Assembly (NCBI RefSeq): GCF_035994185.1
Contig: NZ_CP108538.1
Coordinates: forward strand, 2,294,001-2,358,000
Source of the DNA: Streptomyces sp. NBC_01217
GTDB taxonomy: Bacteria > Actinomycetota > Actinomycetes > Streptomycetales > Streptomycetaceae
Length of the DNA stretch: 64,000 nucleotides
Reading direction: 5' to 3'
The position numbers and the translations under genes were made by a program. Below, piece by piece: positions 1,357-19,637 of this stretch (its first letter is position 1; each line of letters begins with the position of its first letter). The notes below the pieces were generated by a model. It ran no database searches, had not been told where the DNA came from, and worked only from the letters and a program-made list of their open reading frames with translations.

Positions 1357-1391
1357 CACCCATTGTGTTGCTGCACGGAGGGGTGCCCGGA

Positions 1392-1928
1392 ATGGCGAAG
1401 AAGGCGGATTCCGCTTCCGCGACGCGGCGGGACGCGGTGGCGTCGATCGTCGAGGACTGGCGGCGGGAGCGGCCGGATCTGGATCCGGCTCCGCTGGAGG
1501 TGTTCGGCCGGCTGCACCGGGCGTTCCTGCGGTACAGCGCGGCGATCTCCCGGCCGGTGGAGCGCAAGGGCCTGTCGATGGCCGGGTTCGATGTGCTGAC
1601 GGCACTGCGCAGGGCGGGGGCGCCGTTTCGTCGCACGGCGGGCGAGCTGGCCGATTCCGGATTGATCAGTTCGGCGGGGGTCACGCTGCGGATCGACCGT
1701 CTGGAGAAGGACGGGCTGATCCTGCGCGAGCGTGATCCTCAGGACCGCCGGGTGGTGCACTCGCGGCTCACGGACGAGGGCCTGTCGACGATCGACGAGC
1801 TGTTCGCGGAGCACCTGGACAACGAGCGGCGGATGCTGGCGGGGCTGACTCCCGCGGAGTGCCGGCAGCTGGCGCGGCTGCTGGAGAAGCTGGAACGGTC
1901 GGTGCTGGCGGCGGAGGACGACGCGTAG
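1392..1928 (+). CDS. MarR-family transcriptional regulator
   Basis: Predicted DNA-binding repressor of 178 residues. The central part has the MarR winged-helix pattern: helices rich in AGFDVLTALRRAG, then GELADSGLISSAGVTLRIDRLEKDGLI as recognition helix, and the wing containing RDPQDRRVVHSRLTDEG. A GTG at 1365 extends the frame, but the ATG at 1392 has a GGAGGGG ribosome site 8-9 nt upstream and is preferred. The N-terminal 50 residues are longer than in minimal MarR proteins. It converges on the large minus-strand catabolic operon beginning at 2023 and is the obvious local regulator candidate. MarR proteins of catabolic clusters commonly sense aromatic acids or their CoA esters; the ligand here is unknown. 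Confidence 0.9.
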   Translation: MAKKADSASATRRDAVASIVEDWRRERPDLDPAPLEVFGRLHRAFLRYSAAISRPVERKGLSMAGFDVLTALRRAGAPFRRTAGELADSGLISSAGVTLRIDRLEKDGLILRERDPQDRRVVHSRLTDEGLSTIDELFAEHLDNERRMLAGLTPAECRQLARLLEKLERSVLAAEDDA

Positions 1929-2022: not shown

Positions 2023-3090
2023 TCAGCCCGTCGCGTCGGCCTGTGCTTCCGCCTCCGTGCGGTACATGCGGCGTACGCGGACCACGCCCAGGTCGTGCTG
2101 GTACAGGTTCTCCGCCTGGTCGGCGTCGGTGCGCAGTTCCTCCAGCATGACGCGGTCCTGTTCGAGCACCTCCCAGTGCCGGTCCTCCAGCACGGTCCGG
2201 TACAGGAAGCGCCAGGTGTCGCGCTGCCAGTCCGTCACCCGCCGGTAGCGCCAGAAGAAGACGGCGCAGCGCTCCTCGTCGATGGGGGTGGCCATGCCCA
2301 CGATGCCGAACGGGCCGCCGGGGCCCGCGGTGGGCGGGTACGGGATGGTGAGGTCGACCCAGTCGACGCCGGTGCGGCAGAGCTCGACCCAGTCGAAGTT
2401 GACGCCGCTCTGGTCGGTCTTCTCGAAGAAGAAGCCTCGCTCGGTCTCCCGGATGCGGAAGCGGGCGGTGGTCTGCCCCTCGGACATGCTGTGCGAGTCG
2501 CGGTGCAGGAACGAGCCGTGCATCGGGTCGAGCAGGTTCTCCACGGCGTAGCGCCAGTTGACGTTCCACTCGGCGTAGCAGAGGAAGGTGGCGACGTCGG
2601 GGTCGGTGAGCTGTTCGGGCAGGACGAGGGGGGCCGGTTCGGGGTGTTCGTCGTCGCCGAAGTAGGCGAGGACCGCACCGCCGGTCTCGATGACGTGGGG
2701 GGCGGCGACGAGCTGTTTGCCTTCGAGGTTGCAGCCGGGGAGTCCGGGGACGGCGGCGACCGTTCCGGTGCCGTCGACCTGGACGCCGTGGTACCAGCAG
2801 GCGATGCGGTCGCCCAGGTGCTTGCCGAGCGAGAGGCGGGCGCCGCGGTGCGGGCAGCGGTCCTCCAGCATGTGCAGGGTGCCGTCGGCGCGGCGGAAGA
2901 GCAGCCACTCCTCGCCGAGGAGGGTGAGCCGTTTCATGCCGCCCGCGGGGACGGCCTCGGCGGGGCAGACGGCGTACCACTGGTTGCGGATGCCGGTGGC
3001 GAAGAGCCGGTCGGCGGTGCGGTTGCCGGGGCGGGCGACTTCGGAGGGGCGGGCCGTTTCGCCCGTGTGTACGGCGGTGTCGGTGGTCAT
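2023..3090 (-). CDS. Rieske non-heme iron oxygenase, large subunit
   Basis: Terminal oxygenase of a two-component ring-hydroxylating or O-demethylating system, 355 residues. The Rieske 2Fe-2S cluster ligands are C79, H81, C98 and H101 (CPHR...CWYH). The mononuclear iron site follows the family pattern with N185, D188, H191 and H196 in NLLDPMHGSFLH. No small (beta) subunit gene is present, which fits the alpha-only vanillate demethylase or phthalate oxygenase-like class. It is the last gene of the operon and follows the small HTH gene by 7 bp. The partner reductase is two genes upstream (3343-4305). The reaction is inferred from the fold; the substrate is unknown. Confidence 0.92.
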   Translation of the reverse strand: MTTDTAVHTGETARPSEVARPGNRTADRLFATGIRNQWYAVCPAEAVPAGGMKRLTLLGEEWLLFRRADGTLHMLEDRCPHRGARLSLGKHLGDRIACWYHGVQVDGTGTVAAVPGLPGCNLEGKQLVAAPHVIETGGAVLAYFGDDEHPEPAPLVLPEQLTDPDVATFLCYAEWNVNWRYAVENLLDPMHGSFLHRDSHSMSEGQTTARFRIRETERGFFFEKTDQSGVNFDWVELCRTGVDWVDLTIPYPPTAGPGGPFGIVGMATPIDEERCAVFFWRYRRVTDWQRDTWRFLYRTVLEDRHWEVLEQDRVMLEELRTDADQAENLYQHDLGVVRVRRMYRTEAEAQADATG

Positions 3091-3097
3091 GGTCGTC

Positions 3098-3319
3098 TCA
3101 CGCTCCCAGTCGTCGCATCTCGCTGCGGAAGGTGTCCTCGGTCCACCGGCTGCCGTCGGGGGCGGGCAGGTCGCGGGCGTTGAGTCCGGCGACGAGGCCG
3201 GGCAGGTCGTGGGTGCCGGTGCCGAAGACCTCCTCGATCACCGCGGCGAGCTTCTTCTCGTACGGGGTCGGCTCGGCGCTGCGTGCCTGGTGGGGGTTGA
3301 GGTACTGCGGGGTTGTCAT
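3098..3319 (-). CDS. small recombinase-like helix-turn-helix protein
   Basis: A 73-residue protein between the reductase and the Rieske oxygenase. The C-terminal half (LVAGLNARDLPAPDGSRWTE then FRSEMRRLG) resembles the small helical domain found after the catalytic domain of large serine recombinases, whose pattern is LNARGIPTPxGGxWTxSTVRRIL. There is no catalytic recombinase domain, so this is not a recombinase. The ATG at 3319 follows an AGGG ribosome site. Such mini-HTH proteins have been annotated beside Rieske systems elsewhere, from memory. Its job could be regulation or a role in the oxygenase complex; neither is visible in the sequence. Confidence 0.7.
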   Translation of the reverse strand: MTTPQYLNPHQARSAEPTPYEKKLAAVIEEVFGTGTHDLPGLVAGLNARDLPAPDGSRWTEDTFRSEMRRLGA

Positions 3320-3342
3320 GTCGGCTCCCTTCGGAGGGCGGT

Positions 3343-4305
3343 TCACAGATCGAGGACGAGTCGCGGGGTGTGGGAGCGGGAGACGCAGAGCATCATCGAG
3401 GCGCCCGCCGCCTTCTCGCCCTCGGAGAGCAGGAAGTCCCGGTGGTCGGGGGTGCCTTCGAGGACCTTGGTCTCGCAGGTGCCGCAGATCCCGTCGCGGC
3501 AGGAGGAGGGCACAGTGATCCCGGCGCCCTCCAGTGCGTCGAGTACGGAGCTTTCGGGGCCGACCTCGACGGTGCGCCCGGCGCGGGAGCAGAGGACGTC
3601 GAACGCGGTGTCCTCGCCGTCGCGCTGCGGCGTCGCGGGGGCTGCGAAGCGTTCCGTACGGGCGGCCGGGCAGCGTTCCTCGACGGCGGCGAGCAGGGGT
3701 TCGGGGCCGCAGCAGTACACCTGGGTGCCGGCGGGCAGCTCGCCGAGGAGGACGTCGAGGTCGATGTGTCCGCACTCGTCCTGGGGTACGAATTCGACCG
3801 ATCCGCCGGGGAGTTCGGCCAGTGCGGTGAGTTCCGTACCGAAGGCCATCGAGGTACGGCTGCGGCCGCCGTGGACGAGCCGCCAGGGGGTGCGGGTGCG
3901 GGATGCCTCGCGGGCCATGGCGAGGAGCGGGGTGATGCCGATGCCGCCCGCGATGAAGAGGTAGGCCTCGGCGTCGCGGCCGGCGTCCAGCTCGAAGTGG
4001 TTGCGGGGGCCCTGCACATGGAGGAGCCGGCCGGGCCGCAGCTGGGTGTGGATGTGGGCGGAGCCGCCGCGGGACGCGGGTTCTCTGAGGACGCCGATGC
4101 GCCAGCGGGTGGTGTCGGCCGGGTCGGAGCACAGGGAGTACTGCCGGATGTGCCCGCCGACGTGAACGTCGATGTGGGCGCCGGGCTGCCAGGCGGGCAG
4201 CGGGACTCCGTCCGGGTGGGTGAGTTCGACGCCGAGTACACCGTCGGCCTCCCAGGTCATGCGGTGGACGAGCAGGTCGAGGCGGGTTTCCTGGGCGCTG
4301 GTCAT
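3343..4305 (-). CDS. phthalate-dioxygenase-reductase-type oxidoreductase
   Basis: Electron-transfer partner of the Rieske oxygenase, 320 residues, moving electrons from NAD(P)H through flavin to a 2Fe-2S cluster. The order is flavin-binding barrel (RQYSLCSDP around residue 56), nucleotide-binding domain (FIAGGIGITPLLAMA), then a C-terminal plant-type ferredoxin domain with C269, C274, C277 and C307. This order is that of phthalate dioxygenase reductase and VanB. Its start overlaps the stop of the ThDP gene by 4 nt (ATGA), so translation is probably coupled. Confidence 0.92.
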   Translation of the reverse strand: MTSAQETRLDLLVHRMTWEADGVLGVELTHPDGVPLPAWQPGAHIDVHVGGHIRQYSLCSDPADTTRWRIGVLREPASRGGSAHIHTQLRPGRLLHVQGPRNHFELDAGRDAEAYLFIAGGIGITPLLAMAREASRTRTPWRLVHGGRSRTSMAFGTELTALAELPGGSVEFVPQDECGHIDLDVLLGELPAGTQVYCCGPEPLLAAVEERCPAARTERFAAPATPQRDGEDTAFDVLCSRAGRTVEVGPESSVLDALEGAGITVPSSCRDGICGTCETKVLEGTPDHRDFLLSEGEKAAGASMMLCVSRSHTPRLVLDL

Positions 4306-5999
4306 CGCGGGGTGCCTCCCTGTCCGGTGGCTGTGTCGGTCGGGGTCGCGGCGGCGATCGCGGTCGCGGTCGCGGGGAGCTTGACGGGCGGGGTGAACGG
4401 GGTGTTCATCGGGCCGAGTGCGGCAAGGTCGATCTCGACGAGGACAGGCCCCTCACAGGCGGTGGCCTCCTTGATGACGGGGCCCGCGTCGGCTTCAGCG
4501 GCGATCCGGGCGTACGGGAGGCCGACGGCGGCGGCGAGCCGCTCGAAGTCGGGGGTGGTGAGGTCGACGCCGGAGCGGCGCGGGAAGTGGTTGTCCTGCA
4601 TGTTGCGCAGGACGCCGTAGCCGCCGTCGTTGAAGACGAGCAGGGTGAGATCGGGCTTCTCCTGGGCGAGGGTGAGGAGTTCGCCGAGGTGGACGGCGAG
4701 GCCGCCGTCGCCCGCGATGACGACGGTGGGCACGTCCGGGCGGCCGAGGGCGGCGCCGATGCCCATGGCGAGACCCTGTCCGATGCCGCCGCCGCGCGGG
4801 AAGACGTTGGTGGCCGGGTCGGTGATCTCCAGGAGCCGGTTTCCCCAGGTGGAGGAGGGGATGGTGACGTCGCGGGCGATCACGGACCCGGGCGGGCAGG
4901 CCGCGCGGACGGCGTCGTTGATGGCGGCCTGCGGCCCGATGGCGTGGCGCTGTGCGCTGCGGGCGTCGGCGCGGGCCTTGCGTACGCGGGCCGGCCAGCT
5001 CGTCTCCGTAACCCCGCTCGTGACGCGTCGAAGGAGTGCGGCAAGGACGGCCGCCGCGTCGCCGTGCAGGGCGCAGGTGGCCGGGTGGACGCGGCCGGTC
5101 GCGGCCGGGTCCAGGTCCAACTGGATGTGGGTGGACGGGAGTTCGAGGGTGTAGTCGGCGGTCTCGTTGGAGCGGAAATGGGTGCCGATGGAGAACAGCA
5201 CATCAGCTTCGGCGAGCAGCGCGCGGCCTGCGGGGGCGGTGGCGTAGTTGCCGAGTACCCGCTCGTCGGACTCGGGGACGCAGCCGCGTCCGGAGTTGGA
5301 GGTGACGAGTCCGGCGTTCAGCGCGTCGAGCAGCGCGGCCAGTTCGGGGCGGGCTCTGTTGGCTCCGCCGCCCGCCCAGATGAGGGGGCGGCGCGCGGCG
5401 GACAGCAGGGCGGCGGCCTGATCGAGGAGCGCCGCGTCGGGCAGCGCGGGCACGGGGGCGGTCGGCACGGGTGTGCCGGTGGGCCGCTGGGGGGCGAACT
5501 GCAGGTCGATGGGCCATTCGACGCTGACCGGGCCGTACGGGGCGGTCAGTGCGCGGGCGGCGGCGTCGCGCAGGATGTCGCCCGCGCCCGCCGCGTCGGT
5601 GACGGTGACCGCGTGGGTGGAGACCGCGCGGAGCATGCCGAGCTGGTCCTTGGTCTCGTGGATGAAGCCGCGTCCCGAGCCGAGGTACTCGCTGTCGATC
5701 TGTCCGGTGATGTGCAGGACGGAGGTGCCGGCGCTGAGGGACTCGATGAGGGAGCCTGCCGCGTTGCCCGCTCCCGTGCCGGTGCTGGTCAGGGCGCAGC
5801 CGAGGCCACCGGTGGCGCGGGCGTAGCCGTCGGCCGCGTTGACGGCGGCGGCTTCGTGGCGGACGGGGACGAAGCGCAGATCGCGGTCGACGGCTTCGAC
5901 GAGCGGCAGGTTGTGCACGCTGACGATGCCGAACACCGTGTCGACGCCGAGTCCGCGCAGCGTCTCGACGAGCAGGTCACCGCCGTTGGGTTGGGTCAT
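4302..5999 (-). CDS. thiamine-diphosphate-dependent enzyme (acetolactate synthase-like)
   Basis: A 565-residue member of the family of acetolactate synthase, benzoylformate decarboxylase and oxalyl-CoA decarboxylase. The N-terminal PYR domain carries the cofactor-activating glutamate E49 (VRHEAAAVNAADGYARATG). The middle domain is followed by a C-terminal PP domain with the Mg/ThDP motif GDGGLAVHLGEL...FNDGGYG. A biosynthetic IlvB is unlikely: there is no regulatory subunit gene next door and the neighbours are catabolic. In this operon it would act on a 2-oxo acid or carry out a carboligation or C-C cleavage. The substrate cannot be read from the sequence. Confidence 0.88.
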   Translation of the reverse strand: MTQPNGGDLLVETLRGLGVDTVFGIVSVHNLPLVEAVDRDLRFVPVRHEAAAVNAADGYARATGGLGCALTSTGTGAGNAAGSLIESLSAGTSVLHITGQIDSEYLGSGRGFIHETKDQLGMLRAVSTHAVTVTDAAGAGDILRDAAARALTAPYGPVSVEWPIDLQFAPQRPTGTPVPTAPVPALPDAALLDQAAALLSAARRPLIWAGGGANRARPELAALLDALNAGLVTSNSGRGCVPESDERVLGNYATAPAGRALLAEADVLFSIGTHFRSNETADYTLELPSTHIQLDLDPAATGRVHPATCALHGDAAAVLAALLRRVTSGVTETSWPARVRKARADARSAQRHAIGPQAAINDAVRAACPPGSVIARDVTIPSSTWGNRLLEITDPATNVFPRGGGIGQGLAMGIGAALGRPDVPTVVIAGDGGLAVHLGELLTLAQEKPDLTLLVFNDGGYGVLRNMQDNHFPRRSGVDLTTPDFERLAAAVGLPYARIAAEADAGPVIKEATACEGPVLVEIDLAALGPMNTPFTPPVKLPATATAIAAATPTDTATGQGGTPR

Positions 6000-6027
6000 G
6001 TCGTTGCGCTCCTGAGGTGTTCGGTGG

Positions 6028-6813
6028 TCAGGCGATGCCGCGGTTGACGCCGCCGCAGACGTCGACGGTGGTGCCGGTGATGTACGAGGCCCTGGGCGAG
6101 AGCAACGCCGTTACGGCGTAGGCGACTTCGTCGGCGTTGCCGAGGCGGCCCAGGGCGATGCCCCGGTCGGCGGCGAGTCCGGCCTGCCAGGCGGCGTAGC
6201 CGAGGGGGCTGCCGGAGGCCGCGTACCGGCGTTCCCACTGCCCGGTGTCGACGAGGCCGAGGCAGACGGAGTTGACGCGGATGCCGTCGGGGGCGAGTTC
6301 CCTGGACAGGGAGGTGGAGAGGTTGAGGATGCCGGCGCGGGCCGCGCTGGTGGTCATCAGCCGGGTCTCGGGCTGCTTGGCGAGGACCGCGTTGATGTTG
6401 ACGACGGACGCGTTGCCGGATTTCCGCAGGTGGGGCAGGGCGGCGTGGAGAGGGTGGAGAACGCCGAAGAACTTGAGTTCCAGTTCGTCGCGCCAGTCGT
6501 CGGCGGTGGTCTCGGCGAAAGGTTTCATCCGGGAGGCACCGGCGTTGTTGACGAGCCCGTCGAGGCCGCCGAGGTGGTCGGCGGCTGCTTCGGTGAAGGC
6601 CTGTACGGAGGCTTCGTCGCGTACGTCGCAGGGCGCGTGGTACAGCCTGTCCGGTCCGGCGAGTCCGTCGAGGGCCGCGGTGAGTGCGTCGGCGCGGCGG
6701 CCGCAGGTGGCGACGCGGGTGCCTTCGGCGAGCAGCATGCGGACCGTGGCGAGGCCGACGCCGGAGCTGCCGCCGGTGACGAGGATGCGGCGGTCGGCGA
6801 GGCGCAGGTCCAT
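6028..6813 (-). CDS. atypical short-chain dehydrogenase without the Tyr-Lys pair
   Basis: Rossmann-fold SDR of 261 residues. The nucleotide motif TGGSSGVG lies at residues 13-20 and NNAG is present. Where normal SDRs carry YxxxK this protein reads TSAARAG, so the catalytic Tyr and Lys are replaced by Thr and Arg, and the usual catalytic Ser region reads INAV. It may use other residues, bind the nucleotide without classical chemistry, or belong to a divergent SDR subgroup. The frame extends to 6945, but the ATG at 6813 has an AGGAG site 6 nt upstream and starts at the usual SDR N-terminus. Confidence 0.82.
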   Translation of the reverse strand: MDLRLADRRILVTGGSSGVGLATVRMLLAEGTRVATCGRRADALTAALDGLAGPDRLYHAPCDVRDEASVQAFTEAAADHLGGLDGLVNNAGASRMKPFAETTADDWRDELELKFFGVLHPLHAALPHLRKSGNASVVNINAVLAKQPETRLMTTSAARAGILNLSTSLSRELAPDGIRVNSVCLGLVDTGQWERRYAASGSPLGYAAWQAGLAADRGIALGRLGNADEVAYAVTALLSPRASYITGTTVDVCGGVNRGIA

Positions 6814-6880
6814 GTGGTGCTCCTGGTGTTCCGGGTACGTCGGATCGAGGACGGGCTGCCCGAGGGCGGGCCCGATCCGC

Positions 6881-7675
6881 TCAGTGCATCGTGAAGCCGC
6901 CGTTGACGGCGAAGGTCTGGCCGGTGATGTAGCCGGACTCGTCACCGACGAGGAAGGCGATAAGGCCGACCACGTCCGCCGGTTGCTGGGGCCGGGAGAT
7001 CGCCCGGTTCAGCCGGTACAGCTCGTGCCGTTCGGCGGGGATGTCCACGGCGGACTCCCCCTCGGTCAGCCCGGGGGCGACCGCGTTGACGGTGATGCCG
7101 AGATCGCCGGTCTCGCGCGCCATGGCCCGGGTCAGGGAGATCACGGCGCCCTTGGAGGCGATGTAGTGGGCGAGACGGGGCGAGCCGTACAGGGCCGCGT
7201 CCGAGGCGAGGTTGACGATCCGGCCGCCGCCGCCTGCCACCATGAGCGGCAGAAGGGCTCGGGCGACAAGCCACGGGCCGCGGGCGTTGACCTTCATGAT
7301 GCGGTCCCATGCCTCGATGCCGATCTCGTGGAACGGTCTGCCGCCGACCGCGTTGGCCAGACCGGCGTTGTTGACCAGGCCGTGGAGCCTGGTGCCGTCG
7401 CCCGCGAGGGTGGCGGCGAGGGCGTCGACGGAGTCCGGGTCGGTGACGTCGAGCGGGTGGAAATCCGCGGTGACGCCCTCGGCACGGAGCTGGTCGGCGG
7501 CCTGTTCGCCGGTCCGTTCGTCGAGTTCGGCGATGACGACCCGGTGGCCGTCGGCGCCGATCCGGCGGGCCGCGGCCAGTCCCAGGCCGCGGCCGGCGCC
7601 GGTGACGACGACCGTACGAGTGGCCGGCTCCGCCCGGGAGGAGTCCGGCGTACGGGAGGTGTCGTCGGTGGCCAT
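6881..7675 (-). CDS. short-chain dehydrogenase/reductase
   Basis: Classical NAD(P)-dependent SDR of 264 residues with TGAGRGLG near residue 25, NNAG, the catalytic Ser in LASDAA, and YIASK as the active-site Tyr/Lys. The C-terminus (SGYITGQTFAVNGGFTMH) is complete. It probably oxidises a cis-dihydrodiol or secondary alcohol, or reduces a ketone, in the surrounding pathway. Its ATG overlaps the upstream cupin stop by one base (TGATG), so it is translated from the same message. Confidence 0.9.
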   Translation of the reverse strand: MATDDTSRTPDSSRAEPATRTVVVTGAGRGLGLAAARRIGADGHRVVIAELDERTGEQAADQLRAEGVTADFHPLDVTDPDSVDALAATLAGDGTRLHGLVNNAGLANAVGGRPFHEIGIEAWDRIMKVNARGPWLVARALLPLMVAGGGGRIVNLASDAALYGSPRLAHYIASKGAVISLTRAMARETGDLGITVNAVAPGLTEGESAVDIPAERHELYRLNRAISRPQQPADVVGLIAFLVGDESGYITGQTFAVNGGFTMH

Positions 7676-8196
7676 CAGTCGCGGGTGATGCCGTGCATCG
7701 GGGAGTGCTCGGGGTAGGTCGGGACCTGCGGCTTCCGGGTGCCGATGATCACGCAGAACAGGGCGTCGGTGTCGCCCTCGTTCTTCAGCGAGCGGGCCAC
7801 TCCGGCAGGCACGACGATCATGTCGCGGTAGCCGAGGGTGCGGTACTCGGCCTCGTCGGCGCCGCGGTGGATGCCGACCCTGACCTGGCCCTCCAGGACG
7901 AAGAAGGCTTCCTCGACGTCGTGGTGGGTGTGCTCGGGGCCCTCGGCGCCGGGCGGGAGCAGCATGTTGGAGAAGGTGAAGCCGCCGGACGGGATGATCC
8001 GGTTGTCGTTCTCGTGATTGCCGGTGGCGCCGGAGCCGACATAGCGGATCTGGGCGCGCCTGTACTGGTCGCCGGCCTTCGCCTGGAAGGAGAGGGTGTT
8101 CCAGTCGGGCTCGCGGGAGTCCTTGGTGGCGATCAGCGAGTCGGTGTACTTCGCGAGGTCGCCGTCGGTCTCGTAGGGGGTGTTGTCGATGGGCAC
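7675..8196 (-). CDS. cupin-domain protein
   Basis: Single-domain cupin of 173 residues. Motif 1 is PEHTHHDVEEAFFVLEG, giving candidate metal ligands H89, H91 and E95; motif 2 follows with RDMIVVPAGVARSLKN. A GTG start at 8196 is chosen because GAGGAG lies a few bases upstream; a longer frame to 8421 has no such signal. It could be a metal-dependent dioxygenase, isomerase or decarboxylase, or a non-catalytic binding protein. Its place between a hydrolase and dehydrogenases suggests a metabolic step in the same pathway. Confidence 0.85.
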   Translation of the reverse strand: MPIDNTPYETDGDLAKYTDSLIATKDSREPDWNTLSFQAKAGDQYRRAQIRYVGSGATGNHENDNRIIPSGGFTFSNMLLPPGAEGPEHTHHDVEEAFFVLEGQVRVGIHRGADEAEYRTLGYRDMIVVPAGVARSLKNEGDTDALFCVIIGTRKPQVPTYPEHSPMHGITRD

Positions 8197-8240
8197 GGGT
8201 TGCTCCTCGGTTCGTCGGTGCGGGTGGGGGCGGGCCGTCG

Positions 8241-9041
8241 TCACGCGGGTATGCGGGCGACGACGTGGAGGTGGGCGCGGACCCAGGCGTTGAACGTCTC
8301 GGGCCGTTCCTGGTTGGAGAGGTGGCCGGCGCCGGAGAGGGTGACGTAGACGGACTTGGCGAGGCCGCCCGCGACGGCCTGCGACTCCTCGGTTCCGGTG
8401 ACGGTGTCCTCCTCGCCGCACAGGACGAGAGCCGGTGCGGTGATGGTGGGCAGGTCGTCGGTGAGGTCGGCCTCGGCCATCGACTCGGCCGCGTACCCGT
8501 ATCCGGGGGTACGGACGGAGGCGGCCATGGTCGCGACGACGCGTTCGACGAGTTCGGCGGGGGCGTCGGCGGAGACCAGGCGCGGGCCGCGGGCGGCGGC
8601 GAAGGCGTCCGGGCCTTCGGCGGCGAGCCGGGCCGAGCGGCCGCGCATCGCCTCGGCCCTGTCCGGGTGGACGCCCGATCCGCGGCTGGAGTCGGCGACG
8701 ATCAGTGAGTCGACGAGGTGGGGGTGGCGGGCGGCGAGGCGGAGTGCGATGACTCCGCCCCAGGAGACGCCGAGGACGTGCGCGCGGCCGCCGCGTTCGC
8801 GGATGAGTGCGGCGGCGGTGTCGGCGTAGCCGTCGAGGCCGGGGGCGTGGCCGGGGTCGGCGGAGGCCGCGTATCCGGGGGCGTCCCAGGCCACCACCCG
8901 TACCCGGTCACGGAGTCCGGCGAGTTGCGGGGCGAAGGCGGCGGACGAGGAGCCGATGCCGTGCAGGCAGAGCAGCAGCGGCGCGTCGGGGCTCCCGGCC
9001 TCCTGGGTGTGCAGGCCTTCGGTGGTCGGGGTGGTGGTCAC
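8241..9041 (-). CDS. alpha/beta-fold hydrolase, possible meta-cleavage product hydrolase
   Basis: Serine hydrolase of 266 residues. The oxyanion HG motif (LLLCLHGIG), nucleophile elbow GVSWGG (S93), acid residue in VLCGEEDTVTG and catalytic H240 in GAGHLSNQERPE are all present. The N-terminus and family look resemble C-C bond hydrolases that act after extradiol ring cleavage (BphD/MhpC group), which fits an extradiol dioxygenase two genes upstream. The GTG start overlaps the stop of the upstream gene by 4 nt (GTGA). An ester hydrolase is the main alternative. Confidence 0.88.
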   Translation of the reverse strand: MTTTPTTEGLHTQEAGSPDAPLLLCLHGIGSSSAAFAPQLAGLRDRVRVVAWDAPGYAASADPGHAPGLDGYADTAAALIRERGGRAHVLGVSWGGVIALRLAARHPHLVDSLIVADSSRGSGVHPDRAEAMRGRSARLAAEGPDAFAAARGPRLVSADAPAELVERVVATMAASVRTPGYGYAAESMAEADLTDDLPTITAPALVLCGEEDTVTGTEESQAVAGGLAKSVYVTLSGAGHLSNQERPETFNAWVRAHLHVVARIPA

Positions 9042-9856
9042 AGGATCTGTCCCGCCCGGCCGACGACGGCGCCGAGGCTGCGGAGCACGGCGTGCGGCAC
9101 GACCTGGCTGGTGGCGGGGTTGGTGGCGTCGGGCCGGTGGGCGACCTCGAAGCGGTACGCGCCGTGCGGGCCCGCTGCCTCGATGACATGCCGGGTGAGC
9201 GTGGCGGCGGGGTCGGCCACGACGACGACCTCGACCAGGTCCGGGTCGCCGGTGGCCAGGGCGACGGACGCGGCCACATTGGTGGACTTGGGGAACTTCA
9301 CCGGGACGTCGCGGGCGGTGCCGCGCATCACCTCGACCGGCTCGGTGGCCGTTCGCAGCCGCTCGGTCAACTCGGCGTCCATCCACGGCTGGTGGAGGGT
9401 GGCGGGCAGCTTGGTGGTGGTCAGGGTGACGGAGGTGAGGGCGCCCAGTCCCCGTACGGCCTGGAGGAGGTCGAGTCCGCCGACCGCTCCGCCGGTGAAG
9501 TAGACCCGGCCGGGTCCGGCGGACCGCAGCCGGTCGACGAGCGCGTCGTCGACGAGCGCGCCGGTGGAGGCGATCAGCAGGTCGGTGCCGCTGCCGAGGA
9601 CCCGCTCGGCCCATTCCCGTACCACTGCCTGCCCGGCGGCTTCGACGATCAGGTCGCAGACGCCGAGCGCGTCCTCGAACGACAGCTGTGGCGCGGGGGC
9701 GTCGACGAGTGGCCGGTTGTCGATCACGCAGGTCAGCTCCGCGCCGGGGACGTGCCCTTCGGCGAGTGCGGCGCCGACGACCCGGCCGATGGCTCCCCAG
9801 CCGACGAGGCCGATGCGGCACACGGGACGGGTCGTGGGGCGGATGGTGGTGGTCAT
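9038..9856 (-). CDS. aspartate dehydrogenase-like (NadX family) oxidoreductase
   Basis: A 272-residue NAD(P)-dependent dehydrogenase of the NadX type, with GLVGWGAIGRVVG as the dinucleotide-binding loop near the N-terminus and the conserved LIVEAAGQAVVREW and STGAL segments. Known NadX enzymes interconvert L-aspartate and iminoaspartate or oxaloacetate, usually for NAD synthesis. No nadA or nadC is nearby. Here it sits inside a ring-cleavage operon with 4-nt overlaps on both sides, so it may act on a pathway imino or keto acid. True aspartate activity is not shown by the sequence. Confidence 0.82.
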   Translation of the reverse strand: MTTTIRPTTRPVCRIGLVGWGAIGRVVGAALAEGHVPGAELTCVIDNRPLVDAPAPQLSFEDALGVCDLIVEAAGQAVVREWAERVLGSGTDLLIASTGALVDDALVDRLRSAGPGRVYFTGGAVGGLDLLQAVRGLGALTSVTLTTTKLPATLHQPWMDAELTERLRTATEPVEVMRGTARDVPVKFPKSTNVAASVALATGDPDLVEVVVVADPAATLTRHVIEAAGPHGAYRFEVAHRPDATNPATSQVVPHAVLRSLGAVVGRAGQIL

Positions 9857-10818
9857 GCGGACACCTCGTCAGTGGCGGGGGCCAGTGGCCCGGGGTCGGG
9901 TTCGCCGGCCATGTGGCAGCGGATCCGTGCGGACGGCGCTCCCGCGGTCCCCCACAGGTCGGAGAGTTCGGGGATCCGCCGCCAGACCTTGGCGATCCAG
10001 GCGTCCTCGACGATCTGGGCGACCTCGGAGGTGTATTCGCAGACGAGTCCGGCAGGGTCGGTGAAGTACGAGAAGGTGTTGTTGCCGGGTCCGTGCCGGC
10101 CGGGCCCCCACTGGGGGTCGATGCCGTGGTGCCGGAGCCGTCCCAGACCGCGCATGAAGTGGTCGACGGACGTCATCTCGTACGCGACGTGGTTGAGCGA
10201 GGCCCACTCCGCCTGGTTGAACGCGATGCAGTGGTGGTCGGCGTTGCAGCGCAGGAAGGCCATCTGGTGCTCGGACCAGTCGGAGACGCGCAGCCCGAGG
10301 ACCGAGGTGTAGAAGGCGACGGCGGCGTCGATGTCGGTGGTGTTGAGGACGGTGTGGGTGACGCCGACGGGTACGGCGCTGTCGCGGCCTCGCGGGGCGA
10401 CGGCGTGGGTCTGGGCGCTGAGCTCGATCAGCCGGCCCTCGGGGTCGGTGAAGCGGAGCCCGTAGCCGCCGCCGACCTGGTCGAGGGGGCCGGGTCCGGT
10501 GACGGGGACGATGCCGCGGGCGAGGAGCCGACGGGCGGCCTCGTCGATCTCGGCGGGGGTGGCGACGGCGAAGGTGATGCGGCCCAGTCCGTTGCGTTCG
10601 CCGCGGGTGAGGGCGAGGACGTGGTGTTCCTCGCCGGTGCCGCGCAGCCAGGTGGCGTCGGCCTCCCGTTCGACGGGTTCCAGTCCCCAGACCTCGCTGT
10701 AGAAGTCGGCGGACTCGGTGAAGGCGGGGGTGTGCAGTTCGACGGAGCGCAGGGCGCGCAGCCGGGCGACGGGTTCACGCCTTGCGGTGGGGCGGGCGTG
10801 GAGGTTCTCGTGAGCCAT
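9853..10818 (-). CDS. extradiol (VOC-fold) ring-cleavage dioxygenase
   Basis: Two-domain type I extradiol dioxygenase of 321 residues. Each half holds a vicinal-oxygen-chelate repeat; the C-terminal repeat has the Fe(II) ligands H155 (VTHTVLNT), H210 (LNHVAYEM) and E261 (VCEYTSE), the family pattern of H146, H210 and E260 in 2,3-dihydroxybiphenyl dioxygenase. It would open a catechol-like ring next to the diol. The ATG at 10818 is preferred over longer frames because it directly precedes the conserved N-terminal repeat. It lies 29 bp after the aldehyde dehydrogenase gene, second in the operon. Confidence 0.92.
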   Translation of the reverse strand: MAHENLHARPTARREPVARLRALRSVELHTPAFTESADFYSEVWGLEPVEREADATWLRGTGEEHHVLALTRGERNGLGRITFAVATPAEIDEAARRLLARGIVPVTGPGPLDQVGGGYGLRFTDPEGRLIELSAQTHAVAPRGRDSAVPVGVTHTVLNTTDIDAAVAFYTSVLGLRVSDWSEHQMAFLRCNADHHCIAFNQAEWASLNHVAYEMTSVDHFMRGLGRLRHHGIDPQWGPGRHGPGNNTFSYFTDPAGLVCEYTSEVAQIVEDAWIAKVWRRIPELSDLWGTAGAPSARIRCHMAGEPDPGPLAPATDEVSA

Positions 10819-10847
10819 GGTGTTCTCCGACTCCTCTCTTCTCGGGA

Positions 10848-12341
10848 TCAGTTGGCGGCCCAGGGCAGCGGTGCGGTGTCGGTGGACCAGTAGAGGGACT
10901 TCTGCCGCTGGTAGCCGCGGATCAGGTCGCGGCCCTTCTCGGTGCCGATGCCGCTGTCCTTCAGCCCGCCGAACGGGGTGGAGATGCTGAACTGCTTGTA
11001 CGTGTTGATCCAGACGGTCCCCGCGTCGATCCGGCGGGCCAGCCGCCAGGCCCTGGCGTGGTCCCGGGTCCAGATGCCGCAGGCCAGGCCGTACACGCTG
11101 TCGTTGGCCTGGGCGACGAGGTCGTCCTCGTCGTCGAAGGGCAGGGCGACGACGACCGGGCCGAAGATCTCCTCCTGGCAGACGCGTGCGGTGTTGGGCA
11201 GGCCGTCCAGAACGGTGGGGAGGTAGTAGGCGCCTTCGCGGTGGAGGCGGCCATCGGGCGCCGCTCCCCCGCAGCGCACTGTGCCGCCCTCCTCGCGGGC
11301 CAGGTCCACGTACGCGGCGACGCTGTCGCGGTGCTTGCGGTGGACGAGCGGGGCGACCTGGGTGTCCGGGTCGGTGCCGGGTCCGATGCGCAACTTCCGG
11401 GTGCGGGCGACGAGTTCGCCGACGAACTCCTCGTAGCGCGCACGGGCGACGAAGAGCCGTGACCCGGCGATGCAGCTCTGTCCGCTGGAGGAGAAGACGC
11501 CGTACATGACTCCGGCCAGGGCCTGCTCCAGGTCGGCGTCCTCCAGGACGATCGTCGGGGACTTCCCGCCGAGCTCCAGCGATGCGGGGATCAGCCTGTC
11601 GGCGGCGATGTGCGCGAGGGTGCGCCCGGTGTCCGTACCCCCGGTGAAGGTGATCTTCCCGACGGCCGGGTGGCGGACGATGGCGTCGCCGATGACGCTG
11701 CCGCGGCCGGGCAGCACGGAGAGCAGGGCGGTGGGCAGTGCGGCCTCGGTCAGTGCCCGGTGGACGAGGCGGCCGAGGGCTAGGGCGACGAGCGGGGTCC
11801 ACTCGGCGGGCTTGAGGAGCACGGCGTTGCCCGCGGCGAGCGCGGGGGCGAGCTTCTGGGCGTCGCTGGCGATGGGCGAGTTCCAGGGGGTGATCGCGCC
11901 GACGACGCCGATGGGCTCATGGACGCTCATCGTGAGGTACGGGCCGCGGGACGGGGTGATCGCGTCCTCGGCGGTCTCCAGCGCGGCGGCGGTGTAGCGG
12001 AAGGTGCCGGCCGCGCTGAGCACGAGGGCACGGGTCTCGGCGCGGCACTTGCCGGTGTCGGCGGTCTGGAGCGCGGAGAGCCGGTCGGCGTCCTGCTCGA
12101 CGAGGTCGGCGATGCGGTGGAGCAGCCGGGCGCGGAGGTGGGCGGGCAGCTCGCGCCACGCGGGGTCCTGGGCGGCGTGCGCGGCGGCGGTGGCGGCCTC
12201 CTCGACGTCGGCGAGGGATGCGGCGTGCACGGTGGCGATGACCTGGCCGGTGGCCGGGTCGACCGTCTCGATGAGGGCACCGCGGCCCTGTCGCCACTGT
12301 CCCGCGACCAACACCTCGTCCAACACCTCGTCGGCAAGCAT
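10848..12341 (-). CDS. NAD(P)-dependent aldehyde dehydrogenase
   Basis: First gene of the operon, 497 residues, full ALDH length. It has the general base E256 in LELGGKSP, the nucleophile C290 in SSSGQSCIAGSR, and nucleotide-binding segments FTGGTDTG and ITPWNSP. It oxidises an aldehyde to a carboxylate. With a ring-cleavage dioxygenase next, a semialdehyde such as 2-hydroxymuconic semialdehyde is a reasonable substrate class, but betaine-aldehyde-like or other specificities cannot be excluded. The ATG at 12341 has an AGGAGG site about 6 nt upstream. Confidence 0.92.
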   Translation of the reverse strand: MLADEVLDEVLVAGQWRQGRGALIETVDPATGQVIATVHAASLADVEEAATAAAHAAQDPAWRELPAHLRARLLHRIADLVEQDADRLSALQTADTGKCRAETRALVLSAAGTFRYTAAALETAEDAITPSRGPYLTMSVHEPIGVVGAITPWNSPIASDAQKLAPALAAGNAVLLKPAEWTPLVALALGRLVHRALTEAALPTALLSVLPGRGSVIGDAIVRHPAVGKITFTGGTDTGRTLAHIAADRLIPASLELGGKSPTIVLEDADLEQALAGVMYGVFSSSGQSCIAGSRLFVARARYEEFVGELVARTRKLRIGPGTDPDTQVAPLVHRKHRDSVAAYVDLAREEGGTVRCGGAAPDGRLHREGAYYLPTVLDGLPNTARVCQEEIFGPVVVALPFDDEDDLVAQANDSVYGLACGIWTRDHARAWRLARRIDAGTVWINTYKQFSISTPFGGLKDSGIGTEKGRDLIRGYQRQKSLYWSTDTAPLPWAAN

Positions 12342-12383
12342 CAGTCGGCCTCCTGCGATCGAATCGATTACCTCAGGGCTAAA

Positions 12384-12412
12384 AATCTAAGTGCTTAAGT
12401 AGTTGACCGCAA
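12384..12412 (-). promoter_or_regulatory. promoter of the catabolic operon
   Basis: Read on the minus strand, TTGCGG (12412-12407) and TAGATT (12389-12384) are separated by 17 bp and lie about 45 bp before the aldehyde dehydrogenase start. The spacer holds two ACTTA direct repeats, and the motif shared with the marR promoter overlaps the -10. It is the only clear promoter for the eleven genes down to 2023. Confidence 0.5.
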
Positions 12413-13335: not shown

Positions 13336-13662
13336 TCACTCCTCCCCGTTCGTCGCCGACTCCTCCGCGATCCGTTCGTGGTGGCGGATGACCTCCGCCA
13401 CGACGAAGTTCAGCAGCTTCTCCGCGAAGGCCGGGTCCAGGTGCGCGCTCTCCGCCAGCTGCCTCAGCCGGGCGATCTGCCGGCTCTCGCGGGCCGGGTC
13501 GGCCGGGGGGAGGTGGTGGGCGGCCTTGAGGTGGCCGACTTGCTGGGTGCACTTGAAGCGCTCGGCGAGCATATGGACAACAGCGGCGTCGATGTTGTCG
13601 ATGCTCTCGCGCAGCCGGTTCAGTTCCGCGCTCACGGACTCGTCGATGTCCCTCGTGGTCAT
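13336..13662 (-). CDS. chorismate mutase (AroQ type)
   Basis: All-helical chorismate mutase of 108 residues, converting chorismate to prephenate for Phe and Tyr synthesis. The N-terminal helix LNRLRESIDNIDAAVVHMLAERF and the KAAHHLPPADPARESRQI segment match the actinobacterial AroQ family, with Arg and Lys residues placed for substrate binding. The frame extends to 13938, but the ATG at 13662 gives the usual family length. It lies just downstream of an AraC regulator on the same strand; no functional tie is evident. Confidence 0.88.
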   Translation of the reverse strand: MTTRDIDESVSAELNRLRESIDNIDAAVVHMLAERFKCTQQVGHLKAAHHLPPADPARESRQIARLRQLAESAHLDPAFAEKLLNFVVAEVIRHHERIAEESATNGEE

Positions 13663-13673
13663 GGTCAGCGAGC

Positions 13674-14564
13674 TTAGACGGCCGGGCCCGGGGAGATCGT
13701 CGGTGGGTGTTCCGGGTCCGGGACCTGATCGCTCCAGCCGCCCGGGACGCTGCGGCCCTGCTGTTCGCGGAAGCGGACCGGGGCGGTGCCGACCCGGCGG
13801 GCGAACAGACGGGAGAAGTACGCCGGGTCGTCGTAGCCCACGCGGCGGGCGACCGCGGCGACCGGCAGGTCCGTGGCGGCCAGGAGCTCCTTGGCCCGGC
13901 CGAGCCGGATGCCGAGCAGGTAGTCCTTGGGGCTGCACCCCGCGCCCCGCCTTACCGCCGTACGCAGCTCGGCCGGTGTCATGCCGTGCCGGGCCGCGTG
14001 CTCGGCGACGGAAAGCGGCTGGAAGGCGTCCCGGGCGAGGGCCTGAAGGACGGGGTCTCCGTCGGGGCCGACATCGGCGCGGGCCCGGCGCAGGGCGACG
14101 AGGAGTTCATGGACGGCGGCACCGGTCTCGACCTCCAGCAGCGGGTTGCCGCGCCGTGCCGCCCGCACCATCCGCCCCACCGCGGCACGCGGCCCCGCCG
14201 TGTCGGCGAGGGGGACGAGCGGACGGTCGGGCTCGATGTAGCCGAGTTCGGTGTACGTGGCGGTGGCGGGGCCGGTGAAGTCGACGAAGCTCTCGTCCCA
14301 GCCGGTGCCCGGATCGGCGCCGTAGTGGTGCGGCGTGCCGGGGGTCAGCCAGATCAGGCTGGGGGCGACGACGGGCACCCGGCGGCCGTCAAAGCCGCTG
14401 AACCAGCCGCTGCCGGAGTTGATGACGACGGCCACGTGGTGGTCCAGGGTGCGCGGTCCGACCGTCGGCAGTGCGCCGTGCTGCAGTCCCACACCCAGGC
14501 AGACGAGGCCCAGCCGGTGGTGGAGCGGGCTGGGAGTGAAGAAGCGCATCCAGGTGTGGTACAT
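13674..14564 (-). CDS. AraC-family transcriptional regulator
   Basis: A 296-residue regulator with an N-terminal cupin-like effector domain (about residues 1-150, PGTPHHYGADPGTGWDESFVDF) and a C-terminal double helix-turn-helix (LSVAEHAARHGMTPAELR, then VAAVARRVGYDDPAYFSRLFARR). It starts at 14564 after GGAAGG. It is divergent from the beta-galactosidase gene, 189 bp away, and most likely activates it in response to a galactoside or plant-derived sugar; that is inferred from the arrangement. Confidence 0.9.
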   Translation of the reverse strand: MYHTWMRFFTPSPLHHRLGLVCLGVGLQHGALPTVGPRTLDHHVAVVINSGSGWFSGFDGRRVPVVAPSLIWLTPGTPHHYGADPGTGWDESFVDFTGPATATYTELGYIEPDRPLVPLADTAGPRAAVGRMVRAARRGNPLLEVETGAAVHELLVALRRARADVGPDGDPVLQALARDAFQPLSVAEHAARHGMTPAELRTAVRRGAGCSPKDYLLGIRLGRAKELLAATDLPVAAVARRVGYDDPAYFSRLFARRVGTAPVRFREQQGRSVPGGWSDQVPDPEHPPTISPGPAV

Positions 14565-14753
14565 CGGCCTTCCTTCCTCCCCGGTCCGGGCATCCGAACA
14601 GTTGTGTCCAAACAGCAGTGATCTTTGTCCATGGACCGGCCGCACGCCAGGGGCGAAGGTTGGTCACGACATTCCCCCCGGGTTCGCCCGCCCCGTGGTG
14701 CGTACCGGCGTACCGGCCCCGGGAGACCGCACGCACAGGAGAGTACGAGCACG

Positions 14754-16586
14754 ATGGCTGACTTCACCGTGGGGGACGACCACTTCCGGCTCGACGGGAA
14801 GCCCGTACGGCTGCTGTCGGGGGCCCTGCACTACTTCCGGGTCCACGAGGCGCAGTGGGTCCACCGGCTGTCGATGCTGCGTGCCATGGGGCTCAACTGT
14901 GTCGAGACGTATGTGCCGTGGAATCTCCATGAGCCGCGGCCCGGCCGCTTCCGGGACGTGGCGGCGCTCGGCCGGTTCCTGGACGCGGCGCAGCGCGCCG
15001 GGCTGTGGGCGATCGTCCGCCCGGGACCGTACATCTGTGCCGAGTGGGAGAACGGCGGCCTGCCGGCCTGGGTGACGGGGTGGTTCGGGCGACGGGTGCG
15101 GACCCGTGACGAGGAGTATCTGGGCGCCGTGGAGCGGTGGTTCACGGCGCTGCTGCCGCAGGTGGTGCAGCGGCAGATCGGACACGGCGGCCCGGTGATC
15201 ATGGTCCAGGCGGAGAACGAGTACGGGAGCTACGGCACCGATCAGGTCTATCTGCAGCGGGTGGCCGGGATGCTGCGGGAGCTCGGTGTGACCGTGCCGC
15301 TGTTCACCTCCGACGGGCCGGAGGACCACATGCTGTCCGGCGGCTCCGTGCCGGGCCTGCTCGCCACGGCGAACTTCGGATCGGGTGCGCGCGAGGCGTT
15401 CGAGGTACTGCGCCGCCATCAGCCGAAGGGGCCGCTGATGTGCATGGAGTTCTGGTGCGGGTGGTTCGAGCACTGGGGTGCCGAGCCGGTCGTACGGGAT
15501 CCGGCGCAGGCCGCCGCCTCGCTGCGGGAGATCCTGGAGTGCGGGGCCTCGGTGAACATCTACATGGCGCACGGGGGTACGAGCTTCGCCGGATGGGCGG
15601 GGGCCAACCGGTCCGGTCCGCTGCAGGACCAGGGCTTTTTGCCGACGGTGACCTCGTACGACTACGACGCGCCGATCGACGAGTACGGCCGCCCCACGGA
15701 GAAGTTCCGGCAGTTTCGCAAGGTGCTCGCCGAGTACGCGGACGGGCCGCTTCCGGAGCTTCCGCCCGAGCCCGTCGGCCTGGCGGCCCCCGTACAGGCG
15801 GAGCTGACGGACTGGGCCCCGCTGGCCGCCGTGCTGGAGGCGCTGGGCGACGAGGAGCCGGCGCCGTCCGGCGTTCCGCCGACCTTCGAGGAGCTGGGCG
15901 TCGACCGGGGCCTGGTGCGCTATCGGGTCGGCGTCCCGGGCCCGCGCGGCCCGTACGCCCTGGGTGTGGCGGGGCTCCGGGACCGGGCCGTGGTGTACGT
16001 GAACGGGGTCCAAAAGGGTGTACTGAGCGACGAGAACGGCGCCCTGGACGAGCCGGTGGCCGGACCCGCGGAGGTCGAGCTGTGGGTGGAGTCGCTGGGC
16101 CGCATCAACTACGGGCCGCGGCTCGGTGAAGCCAAGGGGATCACGGGCGGGGTGCTGCACGAGCGGCAGTTCCTGCACGGTGTACGGGCACGGGCGCTGC
16201 GGCTGGAGGCGTTCGAGGAGCCGGACGCGCTGGCCGGGGTGGCCTTCCGGAGCACCTGGGGTGCCGATGGAGCGGGGGAAGCGGGGGAAGCCGGACGTAC
16301 CGGACTGTTCCGGGGGACGTTCGAGGTCGCGGGTGCGGACGGCACCGGGCATGCGGGGCTCGAACTGCCGGACTGGACGCGCGGGTTCGTATGGGTGAAC
16401 GGCTTCTGCCTGGGGCGCTACTGGTCGGCGGGCCCGCAGCGGACGCTGTACGTACCGGGGCCGGTGCTGCGGGAGGGCACCAACGAGGTGTGGGTGCTGG
16501 AGCTGGAGGGCGCGGGCGCACCGTATGCGCGGCTGGGCCCTGGGGTGCCCGTCCGGGCGGGCACCCCAGGGGATGTTCGGAGCTGA
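14754..16586 (+). CDS. beta-galactosidase, glycoside hydrolase family 35
   Basis: Retaining GH35 enzyme of 610 residues that removes terminal beta-galactose. The TIM-barrel domain has the acid/base E156 (VQAENEYGSYG) and the nucleophile E232 (MEFWCGWFEHWG); the family sequence GPYICAEWENGGLPAW is at residues 91-106. Beta-sandwich domains follow, ending with the jelly-roll motif VWVNGFCLGRYW. No signal peptide is seen, so the enzyme is probably cytoplasmic. An AGGAG site is 10-11 nt before the ATG. It is probably controlled by the divergent AraC protein. Confidence 0.95.
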   Translation: MADFTVGDDHFRLDGKPVRLLSGALHYFRVHEAQWVHRLSMLRAMGLNCVETYVPWNLHEPRPGRFRDVAALGRFLDAAQRAGLWAIVRPGPYICAEWENGGLPAWVTGWFGRRVRTRDEEYLGAVERWFTALLPQVVQRQIGHGGPVIMVQAENEYGSYGTDQVYLQRVAGMLRELGVTVPLFTSDGPEDHMLSGGSVPGLLATANFGSGAREAFEVLRRHQPKGPLMCMEFWCGWFEHWGAEPVVRDPAQAAASLREILECGASVNIYMAHGGTSFAGWAGANRSGPLQDQGFLPTVTSYDYDAPIDEYGRPTEKFRQFRKVLAEYADGPLPELPPEPVGLAAPVQAELTDWAPLAAVLEALGDEEPAPSGVPPTFEELGVDRGLVRYRVGVPGPRGPYALGVAGLRDRAVVYVNGVQKGVLSDENGALDEPVAGPAEVELWVESLGRINYGPRLGEAKGITGGVLHERQFLHGVRARALRLEAFEEPDALAGVAFRSTWGADGAGEAGEAGRTGLFRGTFEVAGADGTGHAGLELPDWTRGFVWVNGFCLGRYWSAGPQRTLYVPGPVLREGTNEVWVLELEGAGAPYARLGPGVPVRAGTPGDVRS

Positions 16587-18541: not shown

Positions 18542-18612
18542 AGCAACCGGGGGCGCTGCCCCGGACCCCCGCTCCTCAATCGCCGGAGGGGCTTGATCCT
18601 GCCGGGCACGAT

Positions 18613-19551: not shown

Positions 19552-19597
19552 GACCCGTCTCCTTGTTGGCGATGCGGGGGCAGGCTGCTACCTTCCA

Positions 19598-19617
19598 CAC
19601 CTAACAAATGTTTGGTG
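19598..19617. promoter_or_regulatory. operator of the steroid CD-ring locus, copy 1
   Basis: Inverted repeat ACCTAACA-AA-TGTTTGGT (19599-19616), extended by one more C/G pair, between the divergent SDR and echA20 genes. The same repeat in the opposite arrangement is at 28258-28275. It is the best candidate for the KstR2-type TetR protein encoded at 26746. Confidence 0.65.
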
Positions 19618-19637
19618 GAAAGGTAGCTGATTCGCCC

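Follow-up and report, generated by a model that had tools for sequence, protein, structure and literature searches.

Gene content and organization of the operon

We analyzed a 64,000-nucleotide stretch of the Streptomyces sp. NBC_01217 genome (contig NZ_CP108538.1, positions 2,294,001 to 2,358,000; hereafter the window), in which a minus-strand row of eleven catabolic genes (2023-12341) may encode the aerobic degradation of kynurenate or of a related N-heteroaromatic acid. All eleven open reading frames (ORFs) listed by the initial annotation, a model's reading of the letters that proposed a catabolic operon, were confirmed on this strand. Read 5' to 3', they encode an aldehyde dehydrogenase (ALDH), a VOC-fold extradiol dioxygenase, an aspartate dehydrogenase-like (AspDH-like, or NadX-like) enzyme, an alpha/beta hydrolase, a cupin, two short-chain dehydrogenases/reductases (SDR2, then SDR1), a thiamine diphosphate (ThDP) enzyme, a VanB-type reductase, an HTH_62 protein and a Rieske oxygenase alpha subunit. 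Three gene pairs overlap by four bases (VOC/AspDH, AspDH/hydrolase, ThDP/reductase) and one by a single base (cupin/SDR2), while the remaining junctions are gaps of 7-67 bases; this spacing would fit co-transcription of the eleven genes as one transcript. The sigma-70 and terminator scans returned no sites, and the single promoter first proposed is better replaced by a single control point, suggested by an operator-like site before the ALDH gene. Both this site (12383-12399) and a MarR-family gene (1365-1928) had been absent from the initial annotation. The features are:

12383..12399, minus strand: operator-like, palindrome-like 17-base site (CTTAAGCACTTAGATTT / CTTAAGCnCTTAGATTT), 42-58 bases upstream of the ALDH start
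10848..12341, minus strand: ALDH, 497 amino acids (aa), assigned by HpaE/BADH-like family scores
9853..10818, minus strand: VOC-fold extradiol dioxygenase, 321 aa, ATG at 10818, assigned by family, structure match and residues
9038..9856, minus strand: AspDH-like (NadX-like) enzyme, 272 aa, assigned by family and kept residues
8241..9041, minus strand: alpha/beta hydrolase of enol-lactonase/esterase type, 266 aa, GTG start, assigned by relatives and residues
7675..8196, minus strand: small cupin, 173 aa, GTG start, assigned by family and residues
6881..7675, minus strand: SDR2, 264 aa, proposed diol dehydrogenase, by grouping with proteobacterial SDRa
6028..6813, minus strand: SDR1, 261 aa, PRK07062 family (NCBIfam score), proposed side-chain reductase
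4302..5999, minus strand: ThDP enzyme, 565 aa, PRK07064 family (NCBIfam score), proposed alpha-keto-acid decarboxylase
3343..4305, minus strand: VanB-type oxygenase reductase, 320 aa, by family match
3098..3319, minus strand: HTH_62 protein, 73 aa, adjoining the Rieske gene (Pfam HTH_62, 111.1 bits)
2023..3090, minus strand: Rieske oxygenase alpha subunit, 355 aa, by family match
1365..1928, plus strand: MarR-family regulator, by family match, convergent with the far end of the operon

Conservation of the gene set

A profile search of genome contigs with a Rieske alignment recovered at least 584 stretches encoding a relative of the Rieske protein, from which the best 80 (53 Streptomyces and 27 other actinobacterial loci), chosen by the Rieske protein alone, were surveyed for the remaining genes. 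HTH_62 and Rieske genes were present in all 80, followed by ThDP (77), VanB (76), SDR1 (75), SDR2 (74), cupin and hydrolase (73 each), VOC (69), ALDH (66), MarR (55) and AspDH (54). All eleven genes co-occurred in 48 loci and the ten besides AspDH in 62; many of the other 18, from which one or more of the ten were missing, are short or cut by contig edges. As the loci were selected by the Rieske protein alone, the retention of the set points to an association beyond chance, and the search for the same genes in other genomes, a check suggested by the initial annotation, came out in favor of its operon.

The set was found in Streptomyces, Rhodococcus, Nocardia, Corynebacterium, Klebsiella, Acinetobacter, Caballeronia, Novosphingobium, Nitratireductor and Paracoccus, and its conservation across phyla supports the aromatic pathway (Rieske hydroxylation followed by extradiol cleavage) that had been proposed. 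Plasmids carry it, whole or nearly so, as annotated genes in Acinetobacter baumannii, Caballeronia, Novosphingobium resinovorum, Klebsiella pneumoniae, K. aerogenes, Pseudosulfitobacter, Paracoccus and Nitratireductor. There, the Rieske gene is partnered by ferredoxin and flavin adenine dinucleotide-type reductase genes (VanB-type in Caballeronia M1242), and IclR genes occupy the place of the Streptomyces MarR. The 2-hydroxypentadienoate hydratase and aldolase of the classical lower pathway, already noted as missing from the operon, were found neither among the eleven genes nor in the annotated clusters of relatives (the 80 loci were not searched for the pair). A fumarylacetoacetate-hydrolase-family gene was seen in Caballeronia SBC1, within a separate neighboring group on the opposite strand.

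The HTH_62 gene, initially described as encoding a mini-HTH protein, stands as a gene and takes its label from Pfam. It adjoins the Rieske gene in all ten fetched loci of the genus, within which its distribution is uneven (43 of the 295 genomes have a match at E 1e-3, three of them weak at 25-29 bits); a phylum-wide sample of 296 genomes contained three matches, two from the same genus (one being the genome studied here) and one weak. The protein had no NCBIfam match. P0122 and P0141 looked like fusions (HTH_62-Rieske and Rieske-SDR, respectively) but were set aside, since the join in the former and the absent SDR start in the latter are probably artefacts. The source names of the Rieske proteins are general only, and no relative of the AspDH protein was found among viral contigs.

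Protein families and conserved residues

Only two operon proteins passed a curated NCBIfam cut-off, namely the ThDP enzyme (PRK07064, 692.7 bits, cut-off 495) and SDR1 (PRK07062, 340.9 bits, cut-off 266); since neither name carries a specific function, the family naming is correct but silent on the substrate. The ALDH scored 456.9 bits against HpaE and 452.4 bits against BADH (both below their cut-offs), and the Rieske protein falls in the VanA/CarAa-like class. The VOC enzyme (structure match 3b59, E 4e-64) retains H142, H197 and E248 in five of five sequences (numbering on a fragment that begins 13 residues late), which we take to be the metal ligands. Likewise, the NVAA stretch (N193-A196) and H223 are invariant in five of five AspDH-like sequences; as the protein reaches 134.4 bits against TIGR03855, below the curated aspartate dehydrogenase cut-off of 206.55, we label it AspDH-like, a putative assignment drawn from its family and kept residues.

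The alpha/beta hydrolase (S93, D212 and H240 invariant in 26/26) had been put forward as a C-C hydrolase candidate, a role that its relatives do not favor: the closest are the esterase 4uhc and the enol-lactonase 2xua, not BphD/HsaD-type enzymes, with 3kxp as a weaker match (E 1.4e-14), and a fold search with its predicted structure (predicted local distance difference test, pLDDT, 96.7) ranks the esterase/enol-lactonase group first. The cupin keeps H90, H92, E96 and E97 in 26/26 and has quercetinase among its nearest solved relatives. SDR2 shares 41-47% identity with five proteobacterial SDRa proteins and SDR1 43-50% with six proteobacterial SDRb; when 13 SDRs were compared, the former clustered with the Rieske-adjacent SDR of Proteobacteria and the latter with the SDR adjoining ThDP or AspDH genes.

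A proposed MarR-linked control point

The operator-like site matches the window once at up to three mismatches (0.01 expected), and its exact sequence occurs at one place only in the 9.03 Mb genome, before the ALDH gene. The sole other site in the genome (C1:6601185-6601201; L116:5186-5202), with two mismatches, lies 4.3 Mb from the operon, between a major facilitator superfamily (MFS) gene that resembles aromatic-acid/H+ symporters (TIGR00895, 243.9 bits, under the threshold of 418.55) and another MarR gene, whose product is 59% identical to the operon's MarR over 164 residues. This MFS gene is also the genome's best match (54%, 121 residues) to a partial MFS gene that stands upstream of the operon, in divergent orientation, in locus L019.

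We searched for the pattern TTAAGCNCTTAGATTTC (at most one mismatch) in 41 genomes picked from 295 of the genus (21 of the 43 HTH_62 positives and 20 of the 252 negatives), and recovered one site each in 15 of the 21 positives, at 8.9-9.4 kb from HTH_62, none in the 20 negatives, and no matches with the reversed control. A 13-base core (at most two mismatches) stood within 220 bases before the ALDH gene in 38 of the 41 Streptomyces loci covering that stretch and in one of 20 non-Streptomyces loci, a count run without a shuffle control. The site offers evidence for what would be one control point of the operon, and we read the genes as a MarR-linked, probably regulated pathway.

Evidence for nitrogen in the substrate

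The AspDH-like gene and genes of the Rid family, singly or together, were present in 74 of the 80 loci (counts that include edge-cut pieces). AspDH was present in 49 of the 53 Streptomyces loci, the other four being cut by contig ends, and Rid in none of the 53, whereas 24 of the 27 other actinobacterial loci have Rid (15 alone, nine with both), one has AspDH alone and two have neither. In genome-wide searches, 14 of 20 non-Streptomyces genomes lacked an AspDH match, and 12 of these 14 have Rid in the locus; of the remaining two loci, L079 breaks off within the MarR gene, which in L083 is flanked by Rid, and no Rid was found in L075. The Rid gene lies within the gene row in Geodermatophilus, Blastococcus and Nocardia (L087, L090 and L092), beside MarR and outside the operon in several genera, and next to the Rieske gene in Caballeronia M1242, which has AspDH as well. 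This distribution (AspDH in Streptomyces, Rid instead of or beside it elsewhere) points to an imine, and its natural meaning would be an imine/enamine intermediate with two exits, reduction or hydrolysis.

Several small genes were observed alongside. A protein of 110-120 aa accompanies the RidA variant in Actinomycetota and Caballeronia (L087:11109-11459, L011:13663-13995 and ten more loci) and had no family match (Pfam and NCBIfam for the L087 copy, Pfam for that of L011). Another of about 190 aa, lacking a Pfam match, is encoded between ThDP and HTH_62 (L087:9198-9785 and six more loci), and in L092 and L094 the corresponding position holds genes with weak matches (25-31%) to the operon hydrolase.

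Additional oxygenases were recorded in variant loci. A flavin monooxygenase is encoded in 12 of the 80 loci (none from Streptomyces), and also in Caballeronia M1242, Nitratireductor and Vibrio nigripulchritudo; six copies from Actinomycetes, Alpha- and Betaproteobacteria share 56-68% identity, and the solved structures closest to the enzyme are those of tropone 2-monooxygenase and 6-hydroxynicotinate 3-monooxygenase (NicC-like). The Vibrio plasmid locus (L101) holds the lower genes and the flavin monooxygenase; tblastn found no Rieske gene in it, and the annotation shows neither a ferredoxin nor a second SDR (the gene table is incomplete, and the scope was the plasmid record). This gene content looks as if the monooxygenase may lead to the same catechol when the substrate already carries a hydroxyl group. 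The ThDP and monooxygenase genes of this record (18174-19848 and 23439-24534) are each split over frames and thus may be non-working there. Caballeronia NK8 has a second ferredoxin/HTH_62/Rieske/ThDP/VOC set directly before a three-subunit molybdenum hydroxylase of the xanthine dehydrogenase type (XdhC about 9 kb on), such as a quinaldate-to-kynurenate step would need. Its large subunit scored 437.6 bits against 4-hydroxybenzoyl-CoA reductase, 310.1 against 6-hydroxypseudooxynicotine dehydrogenase and 267.6 against quinoline 2-oxidoreductase. Because of the AspDH-like and Rid genes, the NicC-like monooxygenase of some loci and the one adjacent molybdenum hydroxylase, we favor a nitrogen-bearing aromatic, in agreement with the initial annotation.

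Kynurenate as the candidate substrate

We consider it probable that the substrate is some bicyclic N-heteroaromatic acid and, with a confidence just short of even, that the eleven genes together specify an entire aerobic pathway for degrading kynurenate (4-hydroxyquinoline-2-carboxylate) or a compound closely related to it. Horibata, Taniuchi, Tashiro, Kuno and Hayaishi reportedly degraded kynurenic acid with Pseudomonas extracts in 1961, and the enzymology of that decade is said to describe a route whose steps and intermediates match the operon genes one by one. Hence the view that the pathway has not been described, as the initial annotation had it, is doubtful. In that system a diol is reportedly formed by dioxygenation, extradiol cleavage follows, a keto-acid side chain gives up one carbon, and C5 and C4 products and the nitrogen are released, all as proposed for the operon; it differs in being known as enzymology, no enzyme sequences having been found. 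PMC11354673 cites the 1961 paper, and a title in its reference list documents that Pseudomonas extracts degrade kynurenic acid and synthesize glutamate.

We infer the substrate, the order of the steps and every single reaction, with the ring opening (step 7) the least certain. The Rieske oxygenase and VanB reductase (with HTH_62) would form a 7,8-cis-dihydrodiol (step 1), which SDR2 would oxidize to the 7,8-diol (step 2); the VOC enzyme would then cleave the carbocyclic ring to a 3-carboxy-3-oxopropenyl pyridine (step 3), whose side chain would be reduced by SDR1 (step 4). Removal of CO2 from the keto-acid side chain by the ThDP enzyme would leave an aldehyde (step 5), and the ALDH would oxidize this formylethyl side chain to the carboxyethyl compound (step 6). 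The cupin and the alpha/beta hydrolase may open the dihydroxypicolinate ring to 2-oxoglutarate and aminofumarate/iminosuccinate (step 7), and the imine would be converted to aspartate by AspDH or, in other genomes, to oxaloacetate by Rid hydrolysis (step 8), with the carbon balance C10 = C5 + C4 + CO2.

The scheme would give each conserved gene a step, HTH_62 excepted. Judged by family, both the Rieske-type dioxygenase system and the SDR diol dehydrogenase of the kynurenate pathway are represented in the operon, as is its extradiol cleavage enzyme, with the metal triad kept, and the ThDP enzyme and ALDH are present as candidates for the side-chain steps; their occurrence without a hydratase/aldolase pair in annotated clusters agrees with a keto-acid side chain being decarboxylated and oxidized. 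The C4 imine fits N1-C2(COOH)-C3-C4 of kynurenate. Further support comes from the aromatic-acid-symporter-type gene beside the second operator-like site, from quercetinase as a near relative of the cupin and from the match of the hydrolase to 3kxp, an N-acyl-enamine hydrolase.

Several observations weigh against kynurenate. Neither tryptophan 2,3-dioxygenase nor kynureninase was found in the cluster loci (searched with 15 ORFs, the genome's own tryptophan 2,3-dioxygenase and its neighbors), the sole kynureninase match falling in a separate AspDH-family locus (L104); the dioxygenase itself occurs in 290 of 295 genomes of the genus, which renders its frequency uninformative. Pseudomonas, the organism of the early enzymology, is not named among the best 120 of 1977 relatives of the Klebsiella Rieske protein. 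The AspDH/Rid pattern tracks taxonomy and is not a clean exchange (nine of 27 loci with both, one with AspDH alone, two with neither), and five of six AspDH-positive non-Streptomyces genomes also hold Rid in the locus. The molybdenum hydroxylase is nearer to 4-hydroxybenzoyl-CoA reductase than to quinoline 2-oxidoreductase, and stands beside the genes in one plasmid, with one further match (L082, 35%). Finally, the cupin model is weak (pLDDT 67.3), and its fold matches are cupins with many functions.

The same gene logic would serve for another benzo-fused N-heteroaromatic acid, such as indole-2-carboxylate or a differently oxygenated quinoline acid, degraded by parallel chemistry through other intermediates, and a NicC-like monooxygenase and a molybdenum hydroxylase suit several N-heterocycles; yet AspDH would want a C4 fragment with the nitrogen beside one carboxyl and the second carboxyl at the far end, which, by our reasoning, few rings besides 4-oxygenated quinoline-2-carboxylates would yield. 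We rate this alternative as unlikely. We give still less credence to a monocyclic aromatic amine or a benzenoid with an N-containing side chain, for which AspDH and Rid would merely dispose of a released imine: the broad action of Rid proteins on enamines and imines and the VanA/CarAa-like class of the Rieske protein are compatible with it, but the ThDP enzyme, ALDH, cupin and hydrolase, all conserved across phyla, would have no clear joint role. Least probable of all appears a nitrogen-free substrate, with the NadX-like protein acting on a keto acid and the Rid genes being bystanders of the MarR gene. The sub-threshold score of the NadX-like protein and the position of Rid beside MarR, outside the operon, in several genera speak for it; the retained H223 and NVAA stretch, together with the three genera in which Rid lies inside the gene row, speak against.

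Comparison with known pathways

The lumichrome/riboflavin (lum) operon described in PMC12746152 likewise combines a Rieske dioxygenase, an extradiol dioxygenase and a ThDP-dependent decarboxylation in the breakdown of an N-heterocycle. It has, however, 25 genes, with a P450, pyrimidine-ring hydrolases and a xanthine-oxidase-type hydroxylase, and a ThDP enzyme of two subunits (20 and 23 kDa), whereas the operon studied here has no P450 or xanthine-oxidase-type genes and its ThDP enzyme is one 565-aa chain. As the source presents the P450 as required and the ThDP enzyme as a pair of small subunits, a lumichrome pathway was rejected. The bph, hsa and hpa meta-cleavage systems share with the operon the oxygenase, diol dehydrogenase, VOC extradiol enzyme and HpaE/BADH-like ALDH; unlike them, the operon combines the absence of the hydratase/aldolase pair with a hydrolase nearest to enol-lactonases and esterases, and adds the ThDP enzyme, the AspDH-like enzyme and the cupin. 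Pyridoxine degradation, where a flavin oxygenase performs the ring opening, offers an alpha/beta hydrolase relative (3kxp, alpha-(N-acetylaminomethylene)succinic acid hydrolase), which cleaves an N-acyl enamine once the pyridine ring has been opened, although 4uhc and 2xua are closer to the operon hydrolase. The enzyme families and the Rieske/extradiol plan are known; the lower half (ThDP with AspDH/Rid, no hydratase/aldolase pair) matches no pathway found.

Animals, plants and microbes form kynurenate and xanthurenate from tryptophan, and both compounds have signaling roles. To our knowledge, kynurenate 7,8-dioxygenase, its diol dehydrogenase and 7,8-dihydroxykynurenate 8,8a-dioxygenase are without sequences. 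Our literature search, from which subscription journals were mostly excluded, found, among the papers listed, no gene cluster for kynurenate degradation, no report of the operon's genes (weak evidence of absence) and no publication naming HTH_62. If kynurenate is the substrate, one conserved operon would supply the genes for these three enzymes, soil, marine and clinical bacteria would carry a kynurenate/xanthurenate sink, and the lower pathway would replace hydratase and aldolase with a ThDP decarboxylase and AspDH or Rid. We advance more cautiously the wider proposal, which we hold somewhat below an even chance, that these are the missing bacterial kynurenate-degradation genes across Actinomycetota and Proteobacteria (including Klebsiella and Acinetobacter), with xanthurenate entering through the flavin monooxygenase, quinaldate through the molybdenum hydroxylase, and AspDH reduction and Rid hydrolysis, singly or together, serving the same C4 imine. 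Even with another substrate, the gene set would constitute a sharply defined, regulated and easily tested pathway.

Neighboring and related genes

Elsewhere in the genome (L110:4547-7589), a tryptophan 2,3-dioxygenase gene stands beside kynureninase-like and hydrolase-like genes of the same strand, and kynurenine may therefore be produced by the host. The AspDH-family gene of the Phaeobacter plasmid (L104, 10001-10795), about 7 kb from the kynureninase (17926-19176), lies in a different gene neighborhood; it is 46% identical to the Caballeronia copy and has relatives in 23 Phaeobacter records. Rhodococcus wratislaviensis (L064:6874-8689) has two metallo-beta-lactamase-fold genes between the flavin monooxygenase and the VanB reductase. 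Beside the operon itself, window positions 13336-16586 encode a chorismate mutase, an AraC-type regulator and a GH35 beta-galactosidase, which appear unrelated to it.

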